64,000 nt of DNA, taken from Diphasiastrum complanatum (lineage: Eukaryota > Streptophyta > Lycopodiopsida > Lycopodiales > Lycopodiaceae). Positions 7,259 to 64,000 of this stretch are shown here, in pieces (position 1 is the first letter of the stretch; each line of letters opens with the position of its first letter). The DNA is taken from positions 12,694,721 through 12,758,720 of the forward strand of contig CM055097.1 of NCBI GenBank assembly GCA_029204225.1. The letters run 5' to 3'. The notes below the pieces were generated by a model. It saw only the letters and a list, made by a program, of their open reading frames with translations, did no database searches and was not told the DNA's origin. The position numbers were made by a program, and so were the translations under genes.

Positions 7259-7381
7259 TTATAGTTCCTCTTCATCGCCTTGTATGCTATCATTACATTG
7301 GGAGCTGTTTTTTCTAATTTTGATACAATGTGGAGAAACTTCCACCCAGTCTACTCCTTTCTTATCTAGGTAGCTAACAAC
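7259..7381 (-). CDS. Exon I, Smr C-terminus and stop codon
   Basis: Acceptor GTGTGCAG|GT starts phase 0. It encodes [20 protein letters not shown], then a basic and acidic tail ending GDEEEL and TAA at 7259-7261. The sequence fits the last helix and strand of Smr domains (VxxxLxxxGhxW....GxxxIxh). Confidence 0.83.
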   Translation of the reverse strand, partial: VVSYLDKKGVDWVEVSPHCIKIRKNSSQCNDSIQGDEEEL

Positions 7382-10300: not shown

Positions 10301-13276
10301 TAATGCATTCAAAATGTTTGTCCTTCAATCTAGGTTCAATTCTATGAACAAACTGCAAAGCAAACACAATTATACTGTCTACAACATATTCAATAGTAGA
10401 AAGTTTTTCCAGCCTTTTCCCCTTGCAAAATGGCCCAGGCCAATAGGCCAGAGTCTTTTGATGATACTGATTTCTGCAACTTGTAAAATTTTGAGCTAGT
10501 TCACATCCTGTCCTATTCTCCTCGCATATAGCCATAATCCTGTAAAGAATAGATACTTCATATTCCAGGCATGCTCTGTGTTGATTCAGATTTCTAGTTG
10601 AGAACACAAATGTGAGTGTGTTGTGGAAAGCCTGAACTGACAAATGGGCAGTGCAAAAGTCAACTGGTCTTGAAAGCTATATTTTCTGCATATATGTGTG
10701 TAATATACACCTCATAGATAGAGTACTTATGATAAAGGTAGTTTCTTACGAATAAAGCAACGCATGTCCACTAAAACTGTATGCTAAGATGAGCTATAAT
10801 TGAGGCTTGTCCACCCAAGAACCGTCAAGGTCTTGTACGCATAAACTAGTGACAAAGGGGTATTGACTAAGATATAACAAGGGTTAGCAAACTAGCAATA
10901 GTTTGACAAGATCTCTTCAAGGCTTTAGCAAAGCAGAGGAATATCACAGAATCCTATAGATCAAGAGATTCTTGTAGCAGATAGGGTCTTCTGATCAGTA
11001 CCTTCAAAGTTGGAGCAATTACCAATAGGGAAGTACACCAAGATATCTCCTAGGTATTATGGATCGTCGTAGATCATAAGGGAGTCAATGATGTGAATTC
11101 CTAGTTGGAAGTATCAAAGAGAAGCTGAATATTTTCAATATTTTATTACCGTAGTAGTAACTTAGTTTCAAGCTTGATAACACTAGGAAGAACAGGGTAC
11201 ATCAAACCATAGACCTAAGCAGGTATTGGAAGGCAGGCAAAATTCATTGTGGAATCACAGAATCTGAGGATGTTCCAAGGCAATTCAAGGATTCTTCAGC
11301 ATTACTTGTTCCAGAAGTAACAGTACCTTTATCTCTTGAACGGCCCTTGCAGCAATTTCAAGTGTTGTTCTCTGTGGGCGGCATAACTTGAAAAGAGAAA
11401 CATGAATACAAAGCATCAACTAATGAGGTCGAGGGTCTTACAACTGATTCCAGCTTGGACCGACCACCTTCAGAATGCAATCCTTGTTGATCGGTGACTA
11501 AAGTAAGAGTTTTAATGGCTGTGAATGAATGCAACCAACCTTCACATTAGCAACAGATGTTATGAAATTTAGTCATGGCATTGAAATAAGATCTACAGAC
11601 AGCTTCATGGTCAAAACATGTCGATTTCATATGAGTTAAGAATCTTCATGAAGTCGTTCTACTAAAAACACGTCATAGAGTATTGAAAGGTACAAGCATT
11701 ATGACCAGCATAGTAGCATGTATGAACATGAGCAAAAAAATAGGAAGTCAAGTGTCCAAACACCCACCACATATGAGGTGGCATTGCATAGAAAGACATA
11801 AATTAGCTACCCTGAAGCTCAAAACCAATACTCTGATCAATGACTCAGTGTTTGAACTTTTTTCAACAAACATACTACTTGGTGGAAAATCATGACCCAG
11901 TGTGAACCATATAGAGTTGTACAAATGTTGGATCTATCTATGCACCACATTTCTTTGCTGTACAAAACTATAGCTGATTCTCTCTCTCACTATCCCTTTA
12001 TCAAACAAACACAAAGAGTACATCACGCACAAGATGTGAAACAAACAGGATTTCACAAGGGCTATTCTACAGTAGATCATTTGCTACGCCACGAGTTATA
12101 TTGAAAGAGAGTGAGAAAATCAGAAAAGCCTTTCTTCTTACAACCAATTAATTGAAGGGACTAATTGTTCAAAATATTTTTAGGGTTTGAGATGCCCAAG
12201 CCCATAGTTGGCAATTTTGCTATTAGAGTTTGTCCATAATGTGTGTAAAAGAGAAGTTCAAGCAAAAAGAACAGATCAACTCTTAAGAGTTTGTCCATAA
12301 TGTGTGTAAAAGAGAAGTTCAAGCAAAAAGAACAGATCAACTCTTAATGGATCGGAGTGAGCCAAAGCTCATTGAACGAGAAGCTTGAGAGCTCTCGGAT
12401 AGTGTTTTTGCATGTCACATGCAGTGATTAAAGACATATTGCCGAAAGCGCTATTTTCAAGCAATTAACCGTCTGAACAACTCTGTGCATCTTGTTCTTG
12501 CAAACCAAGGCACATTTGCAAGGAACAACTCCATGCTTGGGGCTAGATTAGTAGGGCGCACAAAGTTCTATGTGCAAGGATTCTTGCATAGGATAATACT
12601 GCATTCGAGTGTCCTATAATGTACAATTTTCTAATTGACTTGGATTACTTTTGCCATTCAAGATTCTATTGTGTTGAAAAGTTAGATGTGAGTCTTGTTG
12701 TGTCTAGATGGCCTACCCTCATGTCGGTAGCTTTACATGACTACTAGAACATCATCTACTTATCTAATAGTTTGATTAGTATTCAGGGTGTTGTTTTTGC
12801 ACCTATTTTAATATAATGTTGCTAGGGCGTGATGCATGCAATCATGCATGGCTATGCATAAGCCTTTATTTGCCTTGCATATATTGATTATCTTGTGCTA
12901 TTTGCACGCATCTATGGTTGGGTGTTTAAGGGTTACATCATTTTGAAAAAGGAAAAAAGAAAAAAGAAATAAATTGGGTATTTTGTAATTATCCACCCAT
13001 GGTTGCATTGTTATAGTGTCTAACAAGAGTTCCAAGATTATTTACAAACCGAATGGTGATCTATGCACAATTTTCTTAGTTAAAAAGATAAATTCGTACT
13101 TTGAAGCTACATGACTAAAGCTCACATACATAGAAAAGCTTTATTTCGGTCACCAATAGATGGATAACTTCATGCAGCTTCACTTGTTTATATTATCATT
13201 TTGTGTAAAGTGTATTGTTAGTCAAACACATTTTGATTGGTCCCATGGACCAGGAATCTTAGCGTTCAAAAATAAA

Positions 13277-13350
<74 letters not shown>

Positions 13351-16300
13351 CTTTTGCTATGGCCAGGAAGACCAGGGGGAGCCAGCCCTCCTTCGTCCTC
13401 TTCTTCTTCTTCTTCTTCCTCCCTCCTTGGTTCTCCTGCCCCCTCTTAGTGTCCCCCCTCTTTTCCTAAAGAACCCTACTCCCCCCCTACACGGGCATTC
13501 GAACAGTACATTCTCTCTTCAATGGAGCAGCTCACGTTGGAAACCAGCTATCTCAGGAAAGAAATGGGTCAAATGCAAGCCACTAGTCACACTATGACCG
13601 TCGAGAAGCAATGATGGCCCAGATTACCTTCTTGGAAGAGGCATTGAGGGTATCCAAATTACTGACCTACCTATGGGCACCCATCAATATATCATGAGGC
13701 ACATTTACAAATCATATCTTCCGAGCACCTAGCAGGGTCCACAAGAGTGATTTCTATCACACACACTTTCTATCCCTTGATCCAACTGGATCCCCCATAG
13801 TACTTGGCTACTTGCTAAGGAGTATATCACACAGACTGCGGATACCGATGGGCCAGTTTCGGGTTTCCTCACACCAGCTGGCCATTGAGACCAGCAAATA
13901 TAGCGGCACCCCAAAAGAGGCTCGGCTTGGTAGCATGTGTGATATGCATGAGGGGGTTGAGGACGAATCACATTTCCTCTTCAAATGTCCATGGTACTAT
14001 GAGATTCAGGGGAGGTACTATTGTTTGTTCATGGAGCACCCAGTCACACTTTGTACCTTGATATCCTATGAGGACCCTAGTTGTGTCGCACTGATGATCC
14101 GAGAGATGTTGGACTTGAGGAGGAGACTGGATATTGATACACATTTCTTGATGCAGCTGAGCATCATCAATGAGTGCACATTCCGTCGGAGACAAAGATC
14201 CGAGGTACCCCAAGGTAGTGATTCAAATGGAGAGGTTGAGATTCCGGATGCTTCCATACATCGGCAGCAGAGACATTGTCGAAGCCAAGAGAGACAGCCA
14301 ACTACCAAGCCACAGTCCAGAGCGCCACGGCAACAGAGACGACACCAACAGCCCACCAGGAGACAGAGGCCCACGGCACATTCGGTGATACTTCACAGCA
14401 TACCATACATTGACGACCTTCTTGGCGACGTCAGCAGCATTTATCGAGACCACCTCCAGGCGTTATGCCCATCACATCTTTCTTTGACAACAGCAGTACT
14501 TGATGACACTGAGATATACCAAACGTTTTCGTACTTTGGAAATTGCATCCACCATGCCTACCGATTCTGTCAGCGCTCCACCGCCACAGGTTGTTGCTTC
14601 ATCCTCAGCTGCTATGGGAGACACATGCCACACCTACACGCGCACACCACTCCTGAGAACATCTCCTCGTTGAATGAGTACATTTCTAAGCAATTTGCCG
14701 CTTTTCTTTCACAACTCAATGAAGTTCGTGCAGATTTGCTTACTAAGACTGCCACGATTGACGCTCAACAGGCTGAAATTGCTTCTCTTCGTGCTGCGCT
14801 TAGTGCTTTGCAAAGGGACATCATCCCTAATATCTCACGTGTTGTTGAGGATACTAAGGCATCCATAAGTAAGCTTCCCCTACTTGAGCGCCAGATACAT
14901 GACACTGTTGAGTGCACTGCCCGGATTCCCGTTCTTGAACAGCGGCTTCATGAGACAGTGGAACATGTACAGAAAGTACCTACTCTCGAGCAAGAAATAC
15001 GTGAGACCAAATCATGGGCTTCTACCCTGAGATCATCTACCACCTTTTCGTCTTTTGTAGCACCCTCCTTAGACACCACAGTACAAGGCGTCTTGGCAGA
15101 ACAACAACGTCGGGATGACAAAAAACTCAACTTAAGATTCCGGGGTCTTCCTACTGAGGGCACAGCACTGGACCAGGTTACCTCTTTGTTTACTTCACGC
15201 ATGGGGCTCTCGATTCCAGGTATCCAGTATGCTTGGCGCCTCCAGCATGATCCGAAGGTATTATTTGTCAAATTCAAAACTATGGACGACCGGCAGACAG
15301 TTCTTCGTGCGCGTCGTACTCTCCGAGGCTCTCAGATTTACATAGATGATGACCTTACTCACTGCCAATGGTTACAGCGTAAAACTATTATTCAGGAGGC
15401 AAGGACAAAACAACAACGGGTGGTATTTACAAATGGCAACCCTCGCTTTTTCTCCAAGCGTCAATAGGACGTTGGGGTACTCGGGCATGGGAGCAGCGCG
15501 ATAGCCCCGGCTAGCGTCACATTCGGTTTTTGGAATTGCGGCGGCCTCTCCACCTCTTCTACAGCGGCTGATCTTGACACCTATCTATGTTCGGCTGATT
15601 TTCTACTTTTTGCAGAGACATGAGTCTTCCACACACCCACTTCCGCACATTTCTGGTTTTCAGTGGATTTTTGCTCCACGACCTATGCTACAGGGCAGGA
15701 TACTTCGGGCCTCTGGTGGAGTTGCATGTTTGTACAGGTCGGTGTACACTCCTCCTATTCGGTTGGTGTCTCAGGATACTTATGGCCGTTACTTGTGGCT
15801 TCAGATTACTGCATCCTTGTTGGGGCTGGACCAAGACTTGTTTGTTGCAGTGTGCTACTTTGCTCTCCACACTTCAGTGTTTATGGATTTGGGAGGTGAT
15901 CCTTTTCGGGCCCTTTTTGATGGCGTTGCTAGACTCTCTCTACAAGGTTACATATTGCTTGCAAGGGACTTTAACGCACGCACAACCGCTCGCCAGACTG
16001 AGTTCTATGCTGACACACTCTCTCTTCATCCGTTGGATACCTCTTATGCCCGTTATTCTCAGGACTCATCAGCGACAGTTACTCTTTTTGGGGAACAGCT
16101 TCTGAGGTTGGCTCAAGCACACGGTCTCATTATCCTCAATGGTCTTCTTCAATGGTCATCCTCCTCTGCATATACTTGCCACCCATTTGGTGGCAGTCAC
16201 AGCGTAGTGGACTACTTCATTGCAGCTCCTGCTTTATTGCCCCGTCTGGCATCCTTCACCATCGCTACCCCCGTCCTCGTTGATCACTCTCTGCTCTACC

Positions 16301-19300
16301 ACTCCTTCTCCCCAGCGCCAAGTCCACCTTCTCCTTCACCTTCCCTCTTTGTTCGACCCACCTGCTATCGTATACCTCCTCATCAATCCCAGGCCTATGT
16401 TGCCCACGTCTCTCGTCTTCTGGACCACTTTCCTTCCTCCTCTGATGTCACTACCCAAGCCTCCTTTTTAACACACGCCCTGACTACTGCCGCTCATGCC
16501 ATTGCACCCCCTCGCCGCTTCTCTTCTCATCATCGTACCCATAATAAATGGTATGACAACGACTGTTCTTTCTTCCAAAAATATGTCGAGTTCCTCAAAT
16601 TCTCCAATTCTACACTGTCTTCTTTTGCAGAAAAGCAGCTTTGTTCCCTTCTCCGCAAAAAGAAAGTGGCCTACTTTTCTTCTCGTTCCTCCTACCTCCT
16701 TCGCTCCCTCCATTCTGCTTCCTCGGCTACTTTTTGGAAGATCTTTCTTCATAAGCCCCTATCCATTGCACCCATCCCTCTTCAATCCTGGGTCGACTAT
16801 GCAACCAACCTATATACAATTGCTCACCCTTCCATCTCTCTTTCTTCTCGTCCTACCCACTGTGACCTCTTCTCTCATGACATGGTTGAAGCCACCATCT
16901 GCAAACTCAAGAACAATCATACGTCTGACATTGACCTCCTTTCAGCCGAGCTCCTCAAACCAATTGCCAAACTCGCCTCCCCTTTCCTGGCCCGTTGTTT
17001 CAACCGCTTTGTCGTTGATGGTTTCCCCATACCTTGGGCCACCAATCTCCTTCATCCCATTCTTAAAGCAGGCGATGCCATGAATGTCCACAACTATCGC
17101 ACTATTATGATTGGTCATACCATGGCCAAGTTGTACGCCACTATTCTCCAGAACTTCGTTACGGCAAAGGCTGATTCTCGACTATTATATGCGACTGGCC
17201 AGGCTGGCTTCCGCTGGGGTTATAGCACTCTTGATCATGTCCTCACTCTACGTACTATCATTGAGGAGGCAAAGCATATGGGCAAGAAGATATTTGCTTG
17301 TTTCGTTGATCTCTCTAAGGCCTTTGATCAGCAGACTACGTCAGCTTGGCTTTTCCGACTCTATTCTCGCGGCAGTGGTTGCTCTGTATGAGAGAGTTCT
17401 AGCACGTATTCGGCTGGGTACTGATTTGTCTTCTCCCATCCGTAGCACTGTTGGCGTCAAGCAAGGCTGTCCACTATCCCCTCCGCTCTTTGCACTTTAT
17501 ATTGATGATCTTGAGCGCCTCATTCGTGAAGAAGGTGGAGATGGTTGCCCGTTGGCTCATTTGCTCATCCCCATTCTGCTTTATGCTGATGACATTGTCC
17601 TGCTTTCTTCCTCACCAGAAGGGAGAAGGGTTGCAGTGTCACTTACAGGTCTTACATCGCTTTTGTGTTGCTTGGGGTCTCTCTGTTAACTTAAAAAAGA
17701 CGAAGATCATGATTTTCAACACCAATCGACAAAGCCTTCACAATTATCAATTCTTCTATGACGGCCAGGAAGTTGACATTGTTGCCTCTTATACTTACTT
17801 GGGAGTCATGTTTACTGCGCCCCTTCTTGGTTTCCGCCAGGCTGCATTTGCGCACATTTCCTCCGGTCTTTCAGCATTGGTCCAATCATATTTTCGATCC
17901 CGCTACTAGATGCCAGTTGTTTCACACACGGGTGGTTCCAGCAGTGATGTATGCCTCCGAGATTTGGTTGCCAAGGCTTTCTCTCCGGGACTGGGTAGGC
18001 ATTTCCTGCATTCAGGCCACTATGTTGAGTCGCATGATACGTGCCAAGACTACCACCCCTCATGATATCCTATGTGCTGAGTTTGCTACTCCTCCGATCA
18101 TCCTTGAGGGCTTTTTCCGCCTTATTCTTTTTCTTCAGCAGATTCAGGAGATTCATGCATCTCACCTGGATAGATACATAGTTGTTGCGGTTACTTCTTC
18201 ACATGTCCTAGCTGATTCCCATGCCAAGCTATCCTGGTACCAGCAGGCGTCTGATCTCTTACGACATCTGGGCATCTCTATCATGGATCTTCCTCGTGGT
18301 ACGCATTCATATATCCGAGGCTATTATTCCGTCGATATATGCAACAGACTTGGAGCTCCCTCCCACCTTCCCGTATTCGACTGAGCTATTACCAGACACA
18401 CTTCCTCTCTCTGGATCCTTCTGGTTTGCCACTGTTGCCGCTCTATCTCTCACAGCCCCTATCACACGGCCTGCGCTATCGTCTTGGGCAGTTGCGCATT
18501 TCCTCTCATCAGCTTGCTATTGAGGCCGGTCGTGCATGGGATATCGCTTGTGCTTGTTGCCAGAGGTGGAAGATGAAGCCCATTTCCTCCTCGGATGTCC
18601 GTTGTATTATAAGATACGTGGGAGGTATTATTGTCTCTTTCGCGATGGCCCGCATACACTTCGCAGTTTTGTCTCCTATCCGGATGCTCGTTGCTTGGGA
18701 CTTCTTGTACGTGAGATGCTTACTCTCCGTCAGTCTCACCTGCCTGTACAGATCACCTGGGGTTAGACTCCCGGCAGCTGCTTCTCACTGGCTTCTTTCG
18801 GACTCGAGCACATGCTGATGATTCTGATGATGAGATTCCTATCGTTGTGCCACCGCGGAAAAAGCCCAGATGTAGTCGGCACTTGCCTCCATCGGGGCCC
18901 ACTGCACTCAGCGAACACTTCACACTTACTTTCGCTGATACGTACTTATTCTCCACCTGGCCCGGGTTGTGGGCATTGGTACTTTTTCTGTTATACCTGG
19001 CCCGGGTTGTGGGCTTATTTCACTTCTGCTTTGTTCTACTTTCATTCATAGCTAGTTTATAGCATTTTACGGCCACGTCCTCCTATGGATGATTGTTACG
19101 AGCTCGTGACCAGTGCCGAACCCTAGAGAACACAGATAGGTCAGACACCACAGTCAGGGTCGTGTCCAACGTACACGACCAACAGGGCAAGACAATGTGA
19201 GTAGTGTGCCCCAGCATGGTCCGTAGCCATGGCGGGCCTAACACAGTCTAGGGACCCTGTTAGCAGGACAGGGCCCCAGTTGGGTCCCGACGTGCCGTCG

Positions 19301-46300: not shown

Positions 46301-49300
46301 CCTACTAGCTTGCCTATGGGTCAGGGTACTGCCAAGTGGCAAGTGTCGGCTGTGCATGGAGTTTGCCATGTGTCGACGTTAAGATGTGTCAGGGTTAAGG
46401 GGTGCTTGAGGGGATATAGGGTGAGCCTTGTCAGGCATTCCTCATTTTGATTATGGTATTCCTATGCAGCTATGGTTGGGAGGAGACTTGCAGGCAGAGC
46501 TCTCATGTTTGCTTGTTGATCTATGTACATTTGCTTGAGATTAATAAGTGACGGATTTGCTGGATAATTCTGTGTATTTACTTAGGGTTTGTGAGCGCTT
46601 GTGTGCAACACTGCCTTAGCCACATTAGAGGGAAATGAGTTTGATCATTCAGCACCAAATTAAACTATGGAAAGGTGTTGCCCCCTCAAATGACCGACTT
46701 CCTATCATGGCAATCTTCCATTTTCCTGCTAATACTACATTTGGACATCAACCACTTGTTACATTTGGACCCATTGACCAGTTGAATTGGTCTACTAAAT
46801 TCTCTGAAGAGACACCATAATAGTTGGGTGACAAAGAAAAGCTTGGTTTATGCAATTGATTATATTAAATTTCAATTGAGCTTAAAGGTAGCTTAAAACC
46901 AAAGCAAAACTGAAGTTTGGCTTCTGCGTGAACACAAACCTTGCTTTGGTTCATTGTGTCCTCTTTACGATAAATGAACCTTTCTCCAAGCACTCCTACT
47001 CATCACCAATTCCACTCTTGTGTAAATTTCTCACAACACTATTTCAAGAACCAACATAAATTTATGTTTATGAACATCAGAAAAATATTAGTTTGGTTTT
47101 AATGTTTCATATACAAAAAAGATTAAAGATAAGATGCATAGTTGCACTTCCAAATCACTGGCTTGGTTCATTGTGTCCTCTTTACGATAAATGAATGTCA
47201 TGTGCTATATGTAATTGGCCCTGAGCTTACTAATGAATTACCAAAAATAGCCATGGAGCTAAACCAGACAAAAACTAGTCATTAGAATTGTTAGTAAAAA
47301 GGCGCAAACAACCATGCCATATTTGTATCGGTGGGAATTGTAATAATGGTTGTAAGGCCAAATTAAAGTAATAAGGCCCCAAATGTTAATTAGAGGCACT
47401 AAAGGCCCACTATAAATAAAGGAGGTCGTGCTAATTTGGAGGCTATTCTACTTGTGTGATTTTTGAACTTTTAGTGATCTTGAAGCTTCTCTTTGAGAGC
47501 TTTCTTGATAGTATTGGTGGTTCATGTGCCTACAATCACATGAAAGCTATGATCATGCTCTAGTTTCAGGCCTAACCTTGTGAATGATCAATAATGATGA
47601 ATAACGGATTCTTACTTTGCCTATTTTGGTGAAGCTTTACTATCTTTGTCTAGTTTCTTGATTTCTTGAGTATTTTCTTGATTTCTTGTATTTCCATTAT
47701 AATTTGATGTTAATGAATGGATTAGATGTTTGAATGCTAAGATTGGCACATGACAGTGAACCTTTTTCCAAGCACTTCTACTCGTCACCAATTCCACTCT
47801 GGTGTAAATTTCTCACAACACGAACCAGCATGGACTTATGTCTATGAACTTCAGAAAAATATTAGTCATGGTTTTAATGTTTCATATACATAAAGATTAA
47901 AGATAAGACGCATAGTTGCACTTCCGAATTGCTGTCAGCAATTCAGACAGCGATCTGCACAACCCCCGAATCGCTCAAGGGTCGCGATTCACGACAAAAA
48001 AAAGTTGTAAATACATTCAATATGGGTATCAGTAGAAAAAGAAAACATACAGGATTAAGGGTAGATGCATTTCCAGTAGTTTAAGCCTACTTTCAGGTTC
48101 AATTTCAGCATATTATAGGTCCAATTCCAGTACATTTCAGGTCAAAGGATTAAGAGTAAATGCATTTTCAGTAGTTTCAGCCATTTCAGGTTCACTTTCA
48201 GCAAAAAAAAAATTGCGAGATGCAAAGAAAATTGGTGATTCGCTGGACCAAATCGCGAATCGCAGAATCCCGATTTGCAAATCGTGATTCCAGCGAATTA
48301 CGATTCGCTGCATCCAAGAGCATACTCATAATAACCCTGCATGCAAAGGCTATCAACAGTCAAATGCAAAAGTGAGCATAGCACGCAGGCACACCTCCAT
48401 GTCTGAGGAGCATTTTGTAGTTACAAGGGGAAAACTTCAAGCCTCTGAACTTGGCCTTCAAATCAGCGCAAAAACATCATCGACTTGCAGAGAAACTTTT
48501 GCTAGAAAGGAGAAAAAGTAAAATTTTTCATCATCAAATACAGATACTAACCTTACTGGACAAAATCCCAGCTCGGGCATATTCTCCTTTTTGATATGCA
48601 GCGGCAGCCTAAAGTCAAGAAGGCAAATTTAGACTCCATATTTCTAGTGCAATCATACTGCGTATGTCGTCCAAGTTTGAACTATCAAACAGAATGACTA
48701 AAAATAATTGCTATATTAACCAGCTATGAAACCTGGCAAATCTCATTCCAAAAACAAAAAATTGTTGCGCAGTGGACTTTATGCATGCCTGCTGGAAGTA
48801 CTCTTTCATACTGGACCAATGCTGGTTGGCACTGATGCGGTGGCGTTCATAATCATCCCAACTACCTGCACTGAAAATATACATGTTCACTAACTGGTTG
48901 CTATGGTGGATGTTTAGAAAAATTTCGTTCTCTAAGAACCAAGACATCATATCCAATTTTAACCTCTCCCTCACATGTAAACTTTGGAAACCTGAACTTT
49001 GTATTCATCAAGCCAAGCTTGAAAATTCATTTCATATTTCAAGGTTTTGCTCATCCTATGCATTCTTAACGAGTCAATTCTCACAGATTTGGTCATGCTA
49101 CTCACAGCAATTCTTTGTGGAAAAATTCGGAAAAGGAACTTGTCAAATGATAAAGGGCTGGGAGGCCAGCTCTTGCTACGGGCTGAACAATGCAGGTGCT
49201 TTGATATGAAGTTTTCTTTGTTTTCTTCCAACCTGCCTAGGCACTTATAGAAGTTATTGACTAAGCAGTTCTTTAATACGTTGAGAAGCTGTAAAATTTT

Positions 49301-52300: not shown

Positions 52301-55300
52301 ATGCGGCCTTGTATCATCAGGTGAAGAATAAGGATTATATCATGTTTGGATTACCTGTATAATGTCAATAGTGAATGCACCTTCAAATACCAAGATGTCT
52401 AGAACTTTAAGAACCAACAGTACTCACATGTAGTGATGATCAATAAGGGCAACAATTGATATTGAAATAGAAATGAATATGAAATGCGTGACAATCGTAA
52501 GTGATGGATCAATAGATATTTGGCATGCAAGTATCACAATGCCAAAATTCAAAAAAACATCAAAAAAAGTGCAGTTGAAAAAAGAATGATGTAACAAGAT
52601 CTTGAAAGATGTATGCAAACAACTGAAAGAGATGGAAGTGGCAAATCATAAAAAGGTCTCATTAACTTTCAAATGTCAGATTGGCAAGTAGTAGTGCATG
52701 AGAACTGCCTGACTGTAGGACAATTACTGATGCAAAAATATCCTAACAAAGTACCAAAAAAGTTGACTTCCCAAAAACTCGTGAAACCTAGAAAATTAGA
52801 AGGTGAAATTCCACACATGCTTGAGTTGTAAAGTGCAATAGAAAACCTAATGTAGACAGAACAGATTTTGAAAAGCACAGAAAAGTATGAGAACAATGAA
52901 GCTTCAAAGACTTTGAACTCCAAATTGCAGCATCTAATGATCCAGATGAAGAGATGTGAGGCAGAATAGAAGCATGTAACAATAAGAAAAACGGCAAAAG
53001 AAAGTTCCTTAGAAGCCTTTGCAGTGTCTGGTATTACTCAAAGAGACTAATCAACCATTGAGTCAATTAGCATGTCTTTTGAGCACCAAAAATCAGCAGA
53101 CTTATGAGTAAAAAACAGTAAATATTTAGTCTTTAGTGAGATGCCTAAGTTTCCGCTTGTGATATTTTGAAGCAATCTCAGTTGTAGAATATATAAAATA
53201 AGAGCGAACTGCAGCAAACAACCACCTTACCGTAAGTTTTTCCATGAGCCCTTTCTATCTCTTTGACGATTGAGAACGTATCAGTTTGAACAGTTGCTAC
53301 TTTTGAATAAGTTGAACAAAATTGGTTCTTTTGTTGCTTCCGTTTCTCGTGCAACCTCTGTTCCACATTTTTAGAAGAAGATTTTTCTCGTGGCTGGGCT
53401 CTAAACAGAGACTGCATAACTTCTCGAGAAAGAGCGCTGGGATTTTCAACAGAAAGTCTCTCTTCTGATACCCCAGCTTGAATCAAACACTGTACAGCAT
53501 TACTGCAACCAAACCAAAATTATCCCCAAACTGCCATAGAAAGAAGAATGCAATATCTTACTTTCCTTCCAGTTATTTTTATAAAAATACGTGGAATAGT
53601 CAGGGTACTCATAAGAAATAAAGCCTGCTTAGCATCTCAATCACCCAAAAGAAAGACATCTACCTTTATGACAATAACCTTTCAGTGTCCATTTGCATGC
53701 AAATTGTATTTTTCACAAAATATTATCTCAACTTAGACGAAAAGTACTCAATCCAATATCTGAATTCTTAATGCCATGACAATGTCTCACCAAGCAGAAT
53801 TAAGATGAACCAACTGCAATTGCGCAAACCAGCAAAATTTCTGTTTGAAGTAGTACTCACTTAAAGTACTTCATTGATTATACTTTACTCACCCCAAGGT
53901 TTGGAATTGGCTTACTTCAGGTGCACAAATGGAGATACAGGATTTCAAATGCAAAAGCTTGGGAAGGCAACTCTGATTTAGACTTTCTTACTACATTGTT
54001 TAATAAAAGCCTGAACTTCGTACTGTGAGGTTTATTTATTCCACAGTTTAAATAATAAGTGTTGTTAATTTCTATCTCCATTCAAAACAGATTAAATTTA
54101 ATAGTACTGGACTTGTAATATTCATGAGTTATGGACTTGCCTCATTACATTCGCCGCGTCCATTCTTTTATTCGTTATTATGCATATACTGGCCTTGGGC
54201 CCTATTTGGTCATATTTTTAGGACTTAGTCACGTTGATTTGGAGTGGGGGTCCTCCTATTGGGAGGGCGCACTATTTTCCCTCCAAATCCTATTCCCTCC
54301 CTTTTTTGAATCCTCTATTTGATGGGAGAGGATATATATAGGGCAGCATTGTATTCCTTTATTCAGTTTATGATGATTGCTCCTCTTTAGCCTCCTTAAG
54401 CATTCTTTCTTCCTGCTTTCTAGCTTAAATTACTTGGTGGTAATAGCATCGTCCTTGATGCAAACACCATGAAACATAACGAAAGAGGGTGCACAATCTA
54501 AGAAAGACGTTTTGCTACTTTGCCATCCGAATAAAATATGCAGCACGATTCCAAGCCACACTTTTGAAGTAGTAAGTACTGAAATTGAAATAGACAAAAA
54601 TCATCACAGCCACTTGCTTCCAAAGAAACACGACTACAGAACTAAGATTCATGAGGTTTAACAGATTACATGGCTGCCTTGAATACCTGTAGTTGAAGTC
54701 ATTCGCCTGCAAGACTTCAAACAGTGTCTTCATTTCCATACTTGGGTAAGCAGCATGGAGCCGCTTCACGATTGGCTGTAAGTCAAAAACTTGAGAGTTA
54801 AAAGCTCCTATAGAGGATGAAGTGCAAAAAGAATGTCTATTGTTTCCATTTTGTACAAGAGAAAGGCGAACATATCCAGCTACAAGCTCTATCAAGGCTT
54901 AACAAAATAATAATCACAAGGCCATCAAAGTACACAGACCCACTAGGCCATAAAGCTATTGGATAAAGATACATTACACAAATTTCAACTGGAGAAATAT
55001 CTCTGCAAGTTCCCCAAGTGATCAAGGCTACGAAAGCCTAGGGATCAAATGTGATAGAAATATAAGATTGGGTTTCTACCCCGACTCTTCCGTAAGCCCT
55101 CAATGCATGCAATTCCAAGAAGTTTTCATCCCTAAGTTCAAGATGACTCAACAACTCCGTTGAAATACTTTTCAACTGATTAAGCTTTTTAATGCTATAA
55201 GGATGCTGCTTTTATGAATAGCTCAAAGTGCTGAAAAGTGCACAAAATATGTTTTTGGGTATTTTTACTCCATATCAATATGGTTAGCACATAGTATTTC

Positions 55301-55601
55301 CGCTTGGCAAACAGATGCAAGATGCAGCATTTCTTGAATCGCACGAACTTGTTACATTGTATTTGATTGGTTCCAGATCCTTATTACTTATTGACTATTT
55401 TTAAGTTCTCTGTCAACATGCTCAGTGTACTCAATCATGAATTCAGAGAAACCATGGTCAACTCAATGAAAACCCTAAAAAAAACCACTTTCCTTGGTAT
55501 GTCGTTTGAATTTCAGAAAAGCATATGTAAACCTTGATGCTTGAATAGTCGTTCTCCAGTACTTGACTGAACAGGGCTTGTGTGATTGTTTCTCTAGGTC
55601 C
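7259..55601 (-). CDS. Split host gene: CUE-DUF1771-Smr domain protein (nine visible exons, N-terminus missing)
   Basis: Nine exons on the minus strand join in frame: 55533-55601, 54687-54775, 53231-53502, 48789-48865, 48552-48608, 33721-33788, 33362-33468, 11442-11518, 7259-7381 (939 nt, 312 residues plus stop). Every junction is GT-AG except one GC-AG, and every phase matches. Residues about 20-65 form a CUE-type ubiquitin-binding helix bundle ([19 protein letters not shown], then [10 protein letters not shown]). Residues about 147-211 match DUF1771 ([39 protein letters not shown]). Residues about 220-295 match an Smr domain. In plants this order is typical of CUE/DUF1771/Smr proteins, some of which are CTC-interacting (CID) proteins; a PAM2 motif would lie upstream and is not visible. 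Most length is transposon-filled intron. Both Smr signature motifs are altered, so nuclease function is doubtful. The exon chain is seen directly; family placement is from memory of the domain consensus; expression is inferred. Confidence 0.85.
9387..9663 (-). repeat. Possible LTR with adjoining primer-binding site
   Basis: On the minus strand a TATA-like TATATAAATAAGG (near 9570) is followed by an end ...GTGCTCA, four bases, then TGGTCTCAGAGC (9370-9381), close to the tRNA-Met PBS used by the gypsy elements here. No second LTR or coding region was found, so this is tentative. Confidence 0.3.
9888..10643 (-). pseudogene. Unassigned ORF inside intron H/I
   Basis: A 194-codon frame ends EQPLQ-stop at 10059. 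After that TGA the same frame stays open for 56 more codons ([29 protein letters not shown]). Its composition is protein-like and it lies in the sense of the host gene. The part from LYKTGQMV onward follows a good acceptor (AATATCAG). I recognise no domain. It could be a retained or captured exon pseudogene; skipping it keeps the host frame intact. Confidence 0.3.
11442..11518 (-). CDS. Exon H, glycine-rich motif of the Smr domain
   Basis: Acceptor ATTCACAG|CC and donor CAGTT|GTAAGA bracket 77 bp. T from exon G plus CC gives serine, then [20 protein letters not shown] and KLESV. This matches the Smr second motif (hhTGxGxHSxGGxxxLxxxV), but the glycine after T is D and there is one extra residue. 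It is separated from exon G by 21.8 kb of transposons; phase and domain order identify it. Confidence 0.85.
12226..12347. repeat. Perfect 61-bp tandem duplication
   Basis: Two adjacent copies of a 61-bp unit (12226-12286, 12287-12347), each starting at AGAGTTTGTCCATAATG or its equivalent and ending ATCAACTCTTA, with no mismatch that I can find. This points to a recent slippage or unequal exchange. Confidence 0.9.
13279..13346. repeat. (CT)n microsatellite
   Basis: Thirty-four CT units upstream of the first LINE copy. Confidence 0.95.
13361..14120 (+). pseudogene. LINE copy 1, internally deleted
   Basis: An ATG at 13361 opens [12 protein letters not shown], followed by a helical ORF1-like stretch ([18 protein letters not shown]) to about 13610. 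The sequence then jumps to the ORF2 C-terminal end: [15 protein letters not shown] and [11 protein letters not shown] align with the ORF2 tail of copy 2 ([26 protein letters not shown]). The zinc-binding end follows ([25 protein letters not shown]). Endonuclease and RT are gone. This is a short LINE deletion derivative lying head-to-tail with copy 2. Confidence 0.7.
13812..15467 (+). CDS. Chimeric 551-codon LINE frame; ORF1 part from about 14557
   Basis: Residues 1-110 are the ORF2 zinc-binding tail of copy 1. Residues about 110-250 are basic, glutamine-rich sequence without a match. Residues about 280-390 are a coiled coil ([20 protein letters not shown], then heptads [12 protein letters not shown]). 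Residues about 425-551 resemble the RNA-binding RRM and C-terminal domain of L1 ORF1 proteins ([40 protein letters not shown]). The natural ORF1 start may be the ATG at 14557, which is in another frame ([14 protein letters not shown]), implying one frameshift. In L1-like elements ORF1p coats the RNA. The long ORF is an accident of two LINEs joined in frame. Confidence 0.6.
   Translation: MLRSISHRLRIPMGQFRVSSHQLAIETSKYSGTPKEARLGSMCDMHEGVEDESHFLFKCPWYYEIQGRYYCLFMEHPVTLCTLISYEDPSCVALMIREMLDLRRRLDIDTHFLMQLSIINECTFRRRQRSEVPQGSDSNGEVEIPDASIHRQQRHCRSQERQPTTKPQSRAPRQQRRHQQPTRRQRPTAHSVILHSIPYIDDLLGDVSSIYRDHLQALCPSHLSLTTAVLDDTEIYQTFSYFGNCIHHAYRFCQRSTATGCCFILSCYGRHMPHLHAHTTPENISSLNEYISKQFAAFLSQLNEVRADLLTKTATIDAQQAEIASLRAALSALQRDIIPNISRVVEDTKASISKLPLLERQIHDTVECTARIPVLEQRLHETVEHVQKVPTLEQEIRETKSWASTLRSSTTFSSFVAPSLDTTVQGVLAEQQRRDDKKLNLRFRGLPTEGTALDQVTSLFTSRMGLSIPGIQYAWRLQHDPKVLFVKFKTMDDRQTVLRARRTLRGSQIYIDDDLTHCQWLQRKTIIQEARTKQQRVVFTNGNPRFFSKRQ
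15480..18766 (+). pseudogene. LINE ORF2: APE endonuclease, reverse transcriptase, zinc tail
   Basis: The endonuclease starts [10 protein letters not shown], with FAET then a frameshift near 15620; DFNARTT, the SVVDYF motif and DHS remain. RT motifs follow: [24 protein letters not shown], then after a shift near 17370 [19 protein letters not shown] and [12 protein letters not shown] (YADD at about 17582). Two more shifts (near 17690 and 17900) precede the C-terminal [17 protein letters not shown] zinc knuckle. At least four frameshifts make it non-functional, but the catalytic aspartates survive, so decay is fairly recent. It nicks target DNA and copies LINE RNA in living relatives. Confidence 0.88.
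19094..19443 (+). repeat. 5' LTR of gypsy A1
   Basis: Begins TGTTACGAGCTCG and ends ATCTATTACA. It is 8 bp shorter than the 358-bp LTRs because CCTACTGTGG-like sequence near 19427 is partly lost. It holds a CACGTG G-box at 19314-19319. Confidence 0.95.
19445..19460 (+). promoter_or_regulatory. Primer-binding site of gypsy A1
   Basis: TGGTATTAGAGCCATC lies one base after the LTR; it differs by one base from the tRNA-Met-type TGGTATCAGAGC seen in A2. Confidence 0.8.
20392..21110. mobile_element. 719-bp insert in gypsy A1 with GTTTC/GAAAC word arrays
   Basis: Comparison with A2 shows foreign DNA between two copies of CCAGAA (20386-20391, 21111-21116). Its ends hold dense GAAAC/GTTTC words (GAAACGCGTTTCGAA at left, GCGTTTCGAAACACG at right) in inverted arrangement. 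The target duplication is imperfect (ACCAGAAC against TCCAGAAG), and 22 bp of the host element are missing at the left. Inside are a poly(A) tract and a 227-bp tandem duplication. It looks like a hAT-type non-autonomous element that has captured sequence. Confidence 0.7.
20543..20996 (-). repeat. 227-bp tandem duplication of a coding-like segment
   Basis: Units 20543-20769 and 20770-20996 are about 93% alike. On the minus strand the second reads openly as [20 protein letters not shown], then [20 protein letters not shown] and [14 protein letters not shown]. The first unit has small insertions that break the frame. I do not recognise the protein; a captured host-gene or transposase exon is possible. 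Confidence 0.6.
24510..24867 (+). repeat. 3' LTR of gypsy A1
   Basis: A 358-bp LTR after the polypurine tract AAGGGGGAGGGAG, ending ATCTATTACA, with G-box at 24731-24736. It differs from the 5' LTR by several substitutions and the 8-bp gap, so A1 is clearly older than A2. Confidence 0.95.
24931..25066. repeat. Compound microsatellite (TCT)n-(TCC)n-(CT)n-(TA)n-(CA)n
   Basis: It follows the LINE polyadenylation signal and probably grew from the LINE tail. Open frames here are low-complexity only. Confidence 0.92.
25200..25557 (+). repeat. 5' LTR of gypsy A2
   Basis: TGTTACGAGCTCG to ATCTATTACA. The promoter is probably near CTCTATATCAGGG (about 25490). The position of the G-box in A1 and A3 reads CACATG here (25421-25426). 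Confidence 0.96.
25559..25574 (+). promoter_or_regulatory. Primer-binding site of gypsy A2
   Basis: TGGTATCAGAGCCATC starts one base after the LTR and matches the initiator tRNA-Met 3' end, the usual plant gypsy primer. Confidence 0.88.
25575..26360 (+). other. Untranslated leader of gypsy A2
   Basis: About 790 bases between the PBS and the gag-pol ATG without a long frame; it likely carries packaging and dimerisation signals, which cannot be seen directly. Confidence 0.7.
26361..31148 (+). CDS. Gypsy A2 gag-pol polyprotein, 1,595 aa, intact
   Basis: Single frame with gag and pol fused. Residues 1-300 are capsid ([20 protein letters not shown]). The CCHC knuckle is C345-X2-C348-X4-H353-X4-C358. 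Protease has [11 protein letters not shown], so the active site reads D437-D-G where DSG or DTG is usual. RT carries FLDD (D784, D785). RNase H has D932 in ETDAS. Integrase has the zinc site H1175-X6-H1182-X29-C1212-X2-C1215 and D1245, D1306, E1342, a correct DD(35)E. The C-terminus is a chromodomain-like [16 protein letters not shown] (about 1555-1592), which in chromoviruses steers insertion to chromatin. It copies RNA to cDNA in virus-like particles and integrates it. No stop or frameshift is present. Confidence 0.97.
31147..31159 (+). promoter_or_regulatory. Polypurine tract of gypsy A2
   Basis: AAGGGGGAGGGAG directly before the 3' LTR, the plus-strand primer; identical in A1 and, reversed, near-identical in A3. 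Confidence 0.9.
31160..31517 (+). repeat. 3' LTR of gypsy A2
   Basis: Identical to the 5' LTR over 358 bp, including the CACATG variant at 31381-31386. Confidence 0.96.
31523..32103 (-). pseudogene. Leader/gag start of an older LTR element, cut by gypsy A2
   Basis: This is internal sequence downstream of the PBS at 32104-32120. A minus-strand 75-codon frame ([36 protein letters not shown]) looks gag-like but has no diagnostic motif. It runs up to the CAATT target site; beyond A2 the same element may continue left of 25,195, where I recognise nothing coding. Confidence 0.4.
32121..32535 (-). repeat. LTR of the older minus-strand element
   Basis: On the minus strand it starts TGTTGAATC and ends GTTCTTACA, and is followed at once by TGGTATTAGAGCAACTC (32104-32120), a tRNA-Met-type PBS. 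No partner LTR is in view. The family (copia or gypsy) cannot be told from this. Confidence 0.65.
33362..33468 (-). CDS. Exon G, N-terminal half of the Smr domain
   Basis: Acceptor TTTGCAG|TT and donor CCCCT|GTGAGT bracket 107 bp. It encodes (N)[18 protein letters not shown], then [17 protein letters not shown]. This matches the Smr opening strand and helix (hDLHGxxxxEAhxxLxxxL), but the motif histidine is arginine (residue 224, codon CGT, one transition from CAT). Without skipping the exon, the next codon is completed by exon H. Confidence 0.85.
33469..33720 (-). other. Intron F/G (252 bp)
   Basis: Short intron, GTACGT to TTTGCAG, without repeats. Confidence 0.82.
33721..33788 (-). CDS. Exon F, end of DUF1771
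   Basis: Acceptor TTTTTCAG|GC and donor ATGAA|GTACGT bracket 68 bp. The product is [20 protein letters not shown] followed by SM. Joined to exon E it aligns with the DUF1771 consensus without a gap (LSxxGxxHxxLMxEAxxKA), so no exon is missing across the long intron. Phases are 0 in and 2 out. Confidence 0.87.
34198..34225. repeat. (GAA)n microsatellite
   Basis: Nine GAA-type units in intron E/F. Confidence 0.85.
34574..34616. repeat. Orphan element end with GTTCC/GGAAC words
   Basis: GTTCTGGAACACGTTCCATT followed by CCAGAACGGGCAAC resembles the right end of the hAT-type element at 6.2-6.9 kb (ACACGTTCC...GGAACGGGTAAC). No matching left end was found. Confidence 0.45.
35422..35912. repeat. 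Segment bounded by a short inverted repeat
   Basis: TTCATATAAGGGGGCGCC at the left faces GGCGCCCCTTATTGAA at the right, an inverted match with two single-base gaps. Just inside the left end are AAACACGTTTCC and GAAACACGTTCC. It may be a small transposon or the 5' end region of the hAT gene that begins near 36.0 kb. Confidence 0.45.
36019..37085 (+). pseudogene. hAT transposase, N-terminal part (BED and DUF659)
   Basis: ATG at 36019 opens [12 protein letters not shown], then after a frameshift the BED-finger end [20 protein letters not shown]. Next come [32 protein letters not shown] (first catalytic aspartate region), [13 protein letters not shown] (second) and the helix LDWIKPVLK, in shifting frames with several stops. 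This is the order of BED/DUF659 hAT transposases. The gene breaks off at about 37,085, where gypsy C starts; its C-terminus reappears at 39,065. Confidence 0.85.
37110..38488 (+). pseudogene. Gypsy C integrase and chromodomain
   Basis: The first frame (to 37952) holds the HHCC zinc site ([13 protein letters not shown] ... CGQCQ), SMDFVVGL and [11 protein letters not shown]. The QTER segment reads QKRTNQ, so the catalytic glutamate is lost in a 3-base deletion. After a frameshift the second frame (37967-38488) gives the C-terminal barrel ([17 protein letters not shown]) and a chromodomain ([18 protein letters not shown]). It is related to A2 and B but a distinct family. Confidence 0.88.
38516..39050 (+). 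repeat. 3' LTR of gypsy C (right end approximate)
   Basis: TGTTAGGGACCC follows the polypurine tract TTAAGGGGGAGGGAA. The end lies just before hAT coding resumes; candidate CA ends are ATGTCA or ACTATCA. No 5' LTR is present for comparison. Confidence 0.65.
39065..39765 (+). pseudogene. hAT transposase, C-terminal dimerisation part
   Basis: Across shifting frames: [26 protein letters not shown] (the hAT SPLHAAxYxLNP motif), then [31 protein letters not shown] (39394-39444), [14 protein letters not shown], and an acidic tail ([14 protein letters not shown]). It is the missing end of the transposase at 36.0-37.1 kb, same strand, displaced by gypsy C. Confidence 0.85.
40108..40775 (+). repeat. 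5' LTR of gypsy B
   Basis: TGTCACATGTAC to TGTGCAACA. It contains an imperfect tandem duplication of about 80 bp whose units carry GGGACACTTGGTCCA and GAGTGACAC. There are two G-box cores inside ACACGTGT palindromes (40325-40330, 40450-40455). Confidence 0.92.
40778..40790 (+). promoter_or_regulatory. Primer-binding site of gypsy B
   Basis: TGGTATCAGAGTA, two bases after the LTR, is tRNA-Met-like. Confidence 0.75.
41343..42713 (+). CDS. Gypsy B gag and protease
   Basis: ATG at 41343 ([14 protein letters not shown]) starts a frame of 456 codons. Capsid: [43 protein letters not shown]. The zinc knuckle is [13 protein letters not shown], one residue shorter than CX2CX4HX4C. Protease has [12 protein letters not shown], a standard DTG site. 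The frame ends at a TGA in a frameshift at about 42700, just after protease; pol continues in the next frame. Confidence 0.88.
   Translation: MASASNTSQDSQRLDAVCSKVDTIEATLKLILEQLKGIGVSVPERVSGTAMEVERTLSTGHEVELGFRKRKLPTIKDLKPPKFTGAVSMRTTDAVENWLQKWEKAFQMCGIDDETEMIAEATYRFQESAQRWWRKVDKDDLVPTTWEAFRQMFAQNWVSMDEDNRAMQQWSYLKQGNLSVQDYADKYREALLRIPQEVPMYMQMFHFVEGLRESIRPFVRKEQSHDLRGAIQMALYYEDGKKGPDPVAVAGTSGQQPWGRKGKWNKKRKFEGQTNQWQARGDQRKKGAGAPKGKGLYGQPNAQKGQRLSMLSPQDQERAKRENLCFGCLGQHRWKECPRNLMRTTCNLQVDQMNQGDDPMTVEEIEQEANPDVPRLMNVSVVRRVDTAPPTLLSKSARQGYQFPNTSLIVMRGQLCGRDVQVLFDTGSSHNVLNSTLVRKLGVNSTIPVPVHSENG
42700..45703 (+). pseudogene. Gypsy B pol (RT, RNase H, integrase), broken
   Basis: RT linker, then TGA at 43282-43284 where related elements have arginine (CGA), just before the first RT motif. 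RT (43348-) reads [23 protein letters not shown], and [14 protein letters not shown] instead of the usual YLDD. RNase H has [12 protein letters not shown], with a frameshift near 44270. Integrase zinc site ([11 protein letters not shown] ... CFKCQ) and SMDFITCLP follow, a shift near 45045, then [11 protein letters not shown] and DGQTERVNQ; the DDE residues are all present. The chromodomain ([17 protein letters not shown]) lies in broken frames at about 45820-45900. Confidence 0.9.
45952..46610 (+). repeat. 3' LTR of gypsy B
   Basis: Follows the purine tract GAGGAGGGAAGGGA. G-box cores lie at 46156-46161 and 46283-46288. It has ACATGTGTCAT where the 5' LTR has a shorter ACGGGTCAT. Confidence 0.92.
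46949..47925. repeat. 216-bp tandem duplication, second unit split by a solo LTR
   Basis: Unit 1 is 46949-47164. Unit 2 starts at 47165 with the same GGTTCATTGTGTCCTCTTTA, is cut at 47195, and resumes at 47761 (CCTTTTTCCAAGCACTTCTA) to about 47925. The second parts are about 88% alike, so the duplication is old and predates the LTR insertion. Confidence 0.85.
47196..47755. mobile_element. Solo LTR, 560 bp
   Basis: Starts TGTCATGTGC and ends GCACATGACA, a perfect 10-bp inverted terminal repeat with TG...CA ends. Flanks ATGAA and GTGAA (47191-47195, 47756-47760) are a 5-bp duplication with one change. A TATA box (TATAAATAA, 47411) fits a plus-strand LTR promoter. It is not similar to the gypsy A, B or C LTRs. 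Deletion by LTR-LTR recombination would explain the missing body. Confidence 0.82.
47926..48311. mobile_element. Small element with GAATCGC/GCGATTC word arrays
   Basis: The duplicated unit is interrupted after GTTGCACTTCC. The left end has GAATTGCTGTCAGCAATTC, GAATCGC and CGCGATTC; the right end has GATTCGC, CGCGAATCGC, GATTCCAGCGAATT and CGATTCGC. The middle holds an internal duplication (TGCATTT(T/C)CAGTAGTTT). Exact ends and target duplication are not resolved. Confidence 0.55.
48552..48608 (-). CDS. Exon E, middle of DUF1771
   Basis: A 57-bp exon of exactly 19 codons, [19 protein letters not shown], between CTTTAG and GTTAGT. It supplies the AxAYxxGDxxxAxxLS core of DUF1771 and is phase 0 at both ends. 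It is followed by the 14.8-kb intron. Confidence 0.87.
48609..48788 (-). other. Intron D/E (180 bp, GC-AG)
   Basis: The donor is CAG|GCATGC and the acceptor CTTTAG. No in-frame GT donor would keep the DUF1771 reading YFQQ-AAAAYQ. Confidence 0.8.
48789..48865 (-). CDS. Exon D, start of DUF1771
   Basis: Acceptor AGTGCAG|GT. The product is (G)[18 protein letters not shown] followed by MKEYFQQ, the expected first helix of DUF1771 (YxxxRxxAxxHxxxRxxYFxQA). The donor after CAGCAG is GCATGC, a GC rather than GT donor. Phase is 1 in and 0 out. Confidence 0.85.
48866..53230 (-). other. Intron C/D (4.4 kb)
   Basis: GTAAGG to AGTGCAG. It carries one degenerate gypsy RT scrap (51534-51893). At about 52.1-52.2 kb there is a short run of GTTTC/GAAAC-type words like the ends of the insert at 20.4 kb. 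The rest is AT-rich with no coding signal. Confidence 0.8.
51534..51893 (-). pseudogene. Degenerate Ty3/gypsy RT fragment
   Basis: Minus-strand frame with [20 protein letters not shown] then [10 protein letters not shown], matching [10 protein letters not shown]...VLRP and [10 protein letters not shown]. The catalytic DD is DG. Neighbouring pol regions are not recognisable. Confidence 0.65.
53231..53502 (-). CDS. Exon C, end of CUE and charged linker
   Basis: Acceptor TTGCAG|TA and donor TACG|GTAAGG bracket 272 bp. It starts (S)[16 protein letters not shown], completing the CUE helix, and continues with a charged, probably disordered linker ([20 protein letters not shown]) ending IERAHGKTY. 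Phases are 2 in and 1 out, matching both neighbours. It is the longest exon of the gene. Confidence 0.88.
53503..54686 (-). other. Intron B/C (1.2 kb)
   Basis: GTATTC to TTGCAG; no repeat or ORF recognised. Confidence 0.82.
54687..54775 (-). CDS. Exon B, first half of the CUE domain
   Basis: Acceptor TTACAG|CC and donor TACAG|GTATTC bracket 89 bp. The product begins [20 protein letters not shown] and ends ANDFNY, a CUE-like first and second helix. The last two bases AG join T of the next exon to make serine. Phases are 0 in and 2 out. Confidence 0.85.
54776..55532 (-). other. Intron A/B (757 bp)
   Basis: GTTTAC to TTACAG; no repeat or ORF recognised. Confidence 0.78.
55533..55601 (-). CDS. 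Exon A, upstream of the CUE domain
   Basis: It encodes 23 residues, [20 protein letters not shown] followed by SIK, then donor AAG|GTTTAC. Phase is 0 at both ends if the acceptor is the CAG just before GGACC. A better-looking acceptor lies at 55663, but reading from there needs a one-base shift: the upstream part is open in another frame (acidic, CELNNLGEGSNEGND) and the frame used here meets TGA about 15 bases before 55601. Either the exon is short, or the longer exon carries an indel or sequencing error. The 3' boundary is secure. Confidence 0.65.
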
Positions 55602-59645: not shown

Positions 59646-60265
59646 TCAAGTTGTTTTCCTGACATGCTCAATTTTGACCTTGCAGACGAAGATATCTGAT
59701 TTGGAGCATATGACTCTCCCCCCTCTACTGCAATCCACGGCTCTCAAAAACTGTGTACCCATGCAGCTGGAGACCAAGATGTTGAGGATCGGCCTCCTCC
59801 TGACATCAGTCCAGCCATCGGACATGATGCTATATCCATATGTGGCCCAGTGGCGGTGTAGAGGCTCCATCTCTCTAGACAAGGACTCGACCCTATCTCT
59901 CAGCATGTGTGTGTGGACAACCTTTGAACCAGGGACTCTCCAGCTAGGGCTGATAGACTGTGCAAGGCGGAATGCCCTTCTGAAGGGCTCAGAATCGGTG
60001 ATGGCAAAAGGTAGGTTCAGCTCGTAAATCAAACTGGCCACGGCCTGTGTGGCCTCTCTGTCCATGTGCGGCTGATGCGCGCCGCGAATGGTCTGCTGCA
60101 CAAGGGCTCTACCTGGTGGGCGACAGGTGGTGGACCTCCAGCATGGTGCACCAACCGTGACGGGAATGGACGATGACACGACATGGGCACTAGTGGATGC
60201 ATCGGCTGTAGACGTGGAATGGGGAGAGTGGGATGCACTGGCAGGGATGGGTGCAACAGCATAAG
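59646..60265 (-). pseudogene. Second hAT transposase, N-terminal part (inverted)
   Basis: On the minus strand: ELNLPFAITDSEPFRRAFRL, then MLRDRVESLSREMEPLHRHW, YGYSIMSDGWTDVRRRPILN (first catalytic aspartate, about 59797-59823) and MGTQFLRAVDCS. A donor-like AAG|GTCAAA ends the segment. It faces the plus-strand C-terminal half, so an inversion has turned the two halves tail to tail. Gypsy A3 cuts its upstream side at 60266. Confidence 0.85.
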
Positions 60266-60550
60266 TGTAATAGATCCTAACACCACAGAAGGGCAAACAC
60301 TAACTGATCCACCCAACCTTGCCTACTCCCTGATATAGAGTAAGCCCCTCCTAGCCCAGTGTGAGGACTGGTAGCATGCAACTGCCAAGTGTCGGCCACG
60401 TGTCACTGACGTGGCCAACTGCACATCGAGACCCAACTGGGGGCCCTATCCTGCTGACAGGGTCCCTAGGCTGTGTTAGGCCCGCCCTGACTGTGGTATC
60501 TGACCTATCTGTGTTCTCTAGGGTTCGGCACTGGTTACGAGCTCGTAACA
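60266..60550 (-). repeat. 3' LTR of gypsy A3, internally deleted
   Basis: 285 bp against 358 bp in A2. About 73 bp between GTGTTAGGCCCGCC and CTGACTGTGG are missing. The G-box CACGTG is kept (60397-60402). Confidence 0.94.
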
Positions 60551-60561
60551 CTCCCTCCCCC

Positions 60562-63500: not shown

Positions 63501-64000
63501 TAGGTGGCGAACCATGTGGCAAATCTTCAGGAAAAACATCTTTAAATTTAGACAATAAAGTTTCTGATTTACTGATTTTCTGCTATATAGAACTAAAAAT
63601 AGAAACTTCAAGAATAAACTCAAAGTCACATAAGAATACCTGATGGTCTTTGTCTCCGATTAACTGATAGAGCTCTGAACTGCAGACCATAGGGATGTTG
63701 GGAACATCATGCTCTTCATGCAACTGGATCTCTCGGCCTTTATGCTGAAAGTTGAGGGTGTTCTCCTGATAATTTCTGTGGAGGGAAGGTCCTAAACTGT
63801 AGAGCCAATCTCTCCCGAGAACAATGTCTGCGATCCAGGTGCATTATCTGAAAGTTTAATTCATCTTGGTACCCCTGAATACCAAGATTCAAGTTACTTA
63901 CCATAATTTCCCAGATTTTCTTATCTTCACCCTTAGCTAGTGAAACTATGTACCTATGCTGACTAGGTACTTCTGGAAGTTTAAGTTTTTTAACCAGGGT
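60562..64000 (-). pseudogene. Gypsy A3 pol remains
   Basis: Pieces on the minus strand: RT and RNase H start (63330-62362: [24 protein letters not shown]) ending in a shift; part of the RNase H-integrase linker (62219-61941); integrase core (61749-61342: [20 protein letters not shown], with a stop at the DGQTER segment); barrel (61079-60822); chromodomain (60756-60562: [16 protein letters not shown]). Many stops and shifts; non-functional. Confidence 0.92.

Follow-up and report, generated by a model that had tools for sequence, protein, structure and literature searches.

A probable CUE-DUF1771-Smr host gene with altered Smr motifs, split by transposon-bearing introns

Introduction

CID7, a plant protein of CID class C1, has been described as carrying PAM2, CUE, DUF1771 and SMR (PMC4574140). 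In human N4BP2, DUF1771 is found beside the Smr domain, and the family-2 Smr motifs are given as LDXH and TGXG in the same review (PMC3200294). For yeast Cue2, cleavage was reported to be lost when D348 and H350 were changed together (PMC6598757). The Smr domain of Bacillus subtilis MutS2 has DLR, and this protein was reported to bind collided ribosomes with endonuclease activity that was not detectable; the same report, citing Glover 2020, mentions DxR forms among plant SMR domains (PMC10897456). A plant orthologue of Cue2/N4BP2 was sought and not found by the authors of a paper on translation-dependent transposon silencing (PMC8892269). Concerning gene structure, numerous introns of more than 20 kb are reported for gymnosperms in a review (PMC9364684), and for Douglas-fir a longest intron of 778 kb and genes averaging 18 kb are given (PMC10468028).

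Here, a locus on the minus strand of a 64,000-nucleotide stretch of DNA (hereafter the window) is compared with these systems. In a first-pass annotation it had been described as a 48-kb host gene of nine exons (A to I) with a 312-residue product, hidden beneath nested transposons. For exons B to I, there is good support for a host gene that encodes a CUE-DUF1771-Smr type of protein and has transposons in its introns; the 5' end given in that description is not supported.

Materials and methods

The exons B to I proposed in the first-pass annotation were located on the minus strand and joined. Splice sites were scored with a plant-like weight matrix set from general knowledge and ranked against 4140 AGs and 3485 GTs. 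For the decoy tests, exons F, H, B and I were each replaced by same-strand alternatives that were open, in phase and had an acceptor and donor score of at least -1; these measured 40-200 nt for exons F and H and 30-300 nt for exon B, and for exon I they were terminal frames 10 or more codons long. The mock chains for the GC comparison were assembled from open pieces after the main transposon ranges had been masked. The long open frame of the element at 25200-31517 was searched in three pieces.

Results

When joined, the minus-strand exons B to I (54775-7259) formed one frame of 870 nt encoding 289 residues and ending with TAA, the in-frame stop of exon I at 7261-7259, while the joined sequence held 12 and 26 stops in its two remaining forward frames. 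The gene is stretched over more than 47 kb, with transposons within its introns. The first part of a CUE-like domain lies in exon B (54687..54775), and the end of this domain together with a linker lies in exon C (53231..53502). DUF1771 is distributed over exons D (48789..48865), E (48552..48608) and F (33721..33788). The Smr region starts in exon G (33362..33468), continues with a loop in exon H (11442..11518) and ends in exon I (7259..7381), which also encodes the C-terminal tail and the stop. The intron lengths were 1184 nt (B/C), 4365 nt (C/D), 180 nt (D/E), 14,763 nt (E/F, 33789..48551), 252 nt (F/G), 21,843 nt (G/H, 11519..33361) and 4060 nt (H/I). Judged from the sequence, exons B to I are very probably the eight 3' coding exons of an intact nuclear host gene.

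All introns between exons B and I were GT-AG apart from the 180-nt D/E intron, where the donor (48787-48789, minus strand) was GC, with CAG followed by GCATGC; the gap-free continuity of DUF1771 requires this donor. The acceptors of exons B to G and of exon I were among the best 3 % of the 4140 AGs, and that of exon H ranked at 10.5 %. The donors of exons B, C and E were among the best 1.5 % of the 3485 GTs, and weak donors by rank were found for exons F (8 %), G (11 %) and H (22.5 %).

The strongest domain evidence concerned DUF1771 (PF08590), which was matched in the B-I product at a Pfam E-value of 7.2e-14 and 52.3 bits, against a gathering cut-off of 28.7. By pieces, exon D alone matched profile positions 1-21 (21.1 bits), exons D and E together matched 1-40 (42.1 bits, exon E supplying 22-40), and exons E and F together matched 22-59 (27.5 bits, exon F supplying 41 to about 59); exon F alone was not recognised by Pfam. 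With D, E and F joined, the score rose to 55.7 bits and the profile was followed without a gap across 14.8 kb. Since the profile positions are continuous across these pieces, the E/F join is in register, and the gap-free alignment of exons E and F that had been proposed for this distance is borne out.

A Pfam search of the joined product for CUE, DUF1771 and Smr had been suggested in the first-pass annotation. On the 289-residue B-I product it returned DUF1771, and neither Smr nor CUE was matched (maximum E 1); neither was matched in ten exon pieces at a maximum E of 10, a setting at which most matches weaker than 0.1 are filtered out. The Smr domain said to be rebuilt by exons G, H and I was visible as similarity to the Smr domain of human N4BP2 in the PDB, where the G-I piece matched 2d9i (E 0.00042), 3fau (0.00098) and 2vkc (0.0034), and the whole product gave a best N4BP2 Smr match of E 0.0036. 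The alignment of the whole product to 2vkc (E 0.011) begins in exon G with the LDLHG region. In this alignment, LDLR stands in place of LDXH (LDLRG for LDxHG, exon G) and TDQQG in place of TGXG, at the TGRG position of N4BP2 (exon H). For the B-C piece, the Tollip CUE domain ranked first in the PDB with a non-significant E of 0.71, and the proline of the FP motif was retained (YPSM here, FPNM in the Tollip CUE alignment).

In searches for homologues, none of 1146 candidates for the 289-residue product reached E 0.001 and none of 61 candidates for the D-I product reached E 0.1, in a collection that may contain few plant proteins. The NCBIfam search of the product gave a sub-threshold match only, and the window held no Rfam match at gathering score and no tRNA.

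Unrelated open pieces might have been strung together into the exon chain by chance, and this possibility was considered. The exons had been selected for being in phase, exon A being an example of such a piece, and single exons were not prominent when N4BP2 and Tollip pieces were compared directly with the window by tblastn (best 15 matches each). In the N4BP2 search exon H was tied third and exon I was not among the 15 matches listed; in the Tollip search the B-C site was not among the 15 listed. Only the joined pieces stood out. The top Tollip match (48302-48243, minus strand; 21.9 bits) was not exon B and lay just inside the E/F intron, outside the gene model, and could be due to chance. 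The agreement of eight successive phases, presented earlier together with domain continuity as hard to obtain by chance, is by itself a weaker argument than claimed because the exons were picked for being in phase.

The case for the gene is instead carried by the domain evidence together with the decoy tests. Exon H was the top of 54 scored alternatives with 24.3 bits (of 73 listed, the others had a stop once joined or received no score), followed by a version that uses an acceptor at 11539 (24.0 bits), two alternatives partly sharing exon H (13.8 and 13.4 bits) and the best unrelated one (12.3 bits). Exon I was the top of 117 terminal-exon alternatives (23.9 versus 13.0 bits). Exon B, with 13.8 bits, was the top of 186, tied with four longer versions of itself, and the next other candidate reached 8.1 bits. 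Among the 32 joins tested for exon F (34 were listed, and two other candidates include part or all of F), only the proposed one reached a DUF1771 E of 1e-13, and two reached 1e-11. Set against these decoy results and the gap-free DUF1771 continuity, a chance assembly appears highly improbable. In addition, GC by codon position in the B-I chain is coding-like, GC at position 1 exceeding the mean of the other two positions by 0.164, a value reached by 2 of 2000 mock chains.

The two longest introns contained LTR elements on the plus strand. In the G/H intron, a full-length Ty3/Gypsy element with a chromodomain (25200..31517) was flanked by the target duplication CAATT, and its LTRs were identical at 358/358 positions, indicating that the insertion is young. 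It contained an open frame of 1603 codons from stop to stop, with matches to gag, protease, reverse transcriptase, RNase H, integrase and chromodomain, and is possibly active within the intron. It is adjoined by an older related LTR element (19094..24867) with its own target duplication, ATGAT, whose LTRs showed 331 matches and 19 mismatches over 350 compared positions, 18 of the 19 being transitions. Transition-rich LTR differences are expected for methylated, silenced copies. The frames of this older element were broken into several separate ones, with a match to reverse transcriptase and RNase H. Also in the range of this intron, a plus-strand region (13698-18815) held long open frames, which matched reverse transcriptase only weakly (E 1e-4), and the motif THFLSLDP near both ends. 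In the E/F intron, a Ty3/Gypsy element (40108..46610) with gag and reverse transcriptase had a possible 4-base target duplication, CTGC, and LTRs with 640 matches and 13 mismatches over 653 compared positions; a fragment of another Gypsy element (37065..38485) carried integrase and chromodomain. The wording "nested" for these transposons is unsupported, since the two G/H elements lie side by side with separate target duplications, although an unrecognised outer element is possible. Downstream of the gene, a minus-strand region (2259-2819) matched the retroviral polymerase SH3-like domain (E 1.8e-17) and is probably a Copia fragment.

A recently dead copy that has stayed open by chance was also considered. 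A pseudogene would be consistent with the loss of the Smr motifs, with CUE and Smr domains lying under Pfam detection, with the single GC donor and with the one intronic LTR insertion that has identical LTRs. However, 870 nt run without a stop or frameshift despite strongly diverged domains, the other B-I introns are GT-AG and the GC pattern resembles that of coding sequence, so that a pseudogene is considered unlikely.

At the 5' end, the proposed model was not sustained. The eight exons B to I join in frame to the TAA, but the ninth, exon A (55533..55601, minus strand), had an acceptor ranking only at 24.6 % and a donor at 7 %, with no ATG and no domain match. It was also absent from the best 14 of the 176 phase-0 exon candidates upstream of exon B that pass the score floor. 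Twelve of these best 14 lay wholly within a Gypsy copy at 60258-64000, and none was convincing. An alternative reading of the exon-A region (from 55667, in another frame) had a poor acceptor, and the donor it needed was weak by eye, so that it was rejected. The Gypsy copy (60258-64000, minus strand) belongs to the same family as the intron copies, is about 95 % identical to them and is cut by the window end. Upstream of the gene, a minus-strand region (59652-60299) matched DUF659 (E 7e-14), a domain of hAT-like transposase relatives.

No ATG was found for the B-I model or for exon A. Upstream of its acceptor, exon B can be read on in frame for 41 codons, as far as 54898 (54688-54898, minus strand), without an ATG, and since four longer variants also tie with the proposed exon in score, the 5' edge of exon B is uncertain. 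Missing 5' exons and the start codon may lie upstream, perhaps beyond the window end at 64000. With exon A unsupported, no ATG and a 5' end outside the model, the 48-kb extent and the 312-residue product are not established, nor does 48 kb set an upper bound on the extent of the gene.

Discussion

The product is best explained as a CUE-like, DUF1771 and degenerate family-2 Smr protein that would belong to the plant group of CID7, At5g58720 and possibly SDE5. The domain order, the chromodomain LTR elements and the intron sizes suggest a plant origin, most likely a seed plant with a large genome and perhaps a gymnosperm. Splicing of the pre-mRNA would have to bridge introns as long as 21.8 kb, in which one young LTR retrotransposon and several older ones reside. 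The protein would most likely act as an adaptor that does not cleave. Its CUE-like domain may bind ubiquitin, for example on ribosomes that have collided, and its Smr fold, going by its motifs, may bind RNA or the ribosome without cutting. Taken as a whole, from host gene to non-cleaving adaptor, this explanation is considered moderately probable; given a real host gene, the adaptor mechanism itself, as predicted from the motifs, is fairly probable.

The catalytic DxH of the no-go decay endonucleases Cue2 and NONU-1 is absent from the predicted product, which has DLR. RNA cleavage would not be expected, since DxH is DLR and the TGxG loop is also changed. It is quite unlikely that, in a gene of the same structure, the Smr domain has kept endonuclease activity by using other residues. 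According to the 2011 review, the residues responsible for catalysis had yet to be identified and might differ between subfamilies (PMC3200294). The arginine of the N4BP2 "ARI" is a lysine here, and Cue2 tolerates lysine at R402 (PMC6598757), at positions that are possibly not equivalent. Against this, both family-2 motifs are altered, and the D348/H350 double change removed cleavage in Cue2. The preferred reading of a non-cleaving Smr domain has a parallel in the DLR of MutS2, which is incomplete since MutS2 keeps GxG.

Within this explanation, the gene might be the orthologue of Arabidopsis SDE5 specifically, an RDR6-dependent siRNA amplification factor, a sub-case given less than even odds. 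To our knowledge, databases list DUF1771 and not Smr for SDE5, the same pattern as obtained here. SDE5 (At3g15390) and the SMR protein At5g58720 presumably both have DUF1771 ahead of an Smr-like end, an arrangement that the product would share. In one report, a second Arabidopsis SDE5 homologue is named "AT58720", taken here as At5g58720 (PMC5574965), and an apple SDE5 homologue is labelled DUF1771-SDE5 in another (PMC13082862). However, At5g58720-like genes are annotated in pine (PMC11546098), which makes the other paralogue equally possible.

A more speculative extension, which we consider improbable, is that the product, a DxR-type relative of Cue2 without catalytic activity, reads ubiquitin-marked collided ribosomes in plants, leaves the transcript uncut and passes it to another fate, possibly RDR6-dependent siRNA amplification in the SDE5 pathway. 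If true, a single protein family would connect no-go surveillance with the silencing of transposons by RNA. In the part of the open-licence literature covered, no paper was found that brings SDE5 together with Cue2 or NONU-1, and in the open-licence literature none was found that brings it together with "Smr domain" or "CUE domain".

By domain continuity and splice-compatible decoys, a gene missed by open-reading-frame calling was recovered from among transposons. In a gymnosperm or another large plant genome, nothing is unusual about LTR-bearing introns of 15 and 22 kb; the introns here reach 4 to 22 kb, the two longest carrying LTR elements, and so resemble the long introns of conifers, for which far greater lengths are on record. 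The gene model is largely correct but ordinary, and a sharper side question is raised by the loss of the cleavage motifs from what is probably a plant relative of Cue2.

Compared with known systems, the product shares with CID7 the order CUE-like, DUF1771 and Smr, but differs in having no visible PAM2 (the 5' end is missing), an Smr domain too diverged for Pfam and a non-significant CUE match. It resembles yeast Cue2 in combining CUE and Smr (PMC6598757) and human N4BP2 in having DUF1771 beside Smr (PMC3200294), while it differs from Cue2, Caenorhabditis elegans NONU-1 and N4BP2, which act in no-go decay, in having DLR rather than DxH and no TGxG. With the Smr domain of B. subtilis MutS2 it has DLR in common, whereas MutS2 is described with ATPase and KOW domains and with GxG kept (PMC10897456). 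CUE-DUF1771-Smr proteins such as the predicted B-I product are natural candidates for the plant orthologue of Cue2/N4BP2, and the changed active site would fit the plant DxR forms mentioned in the MutS2 report (PMC10897456).
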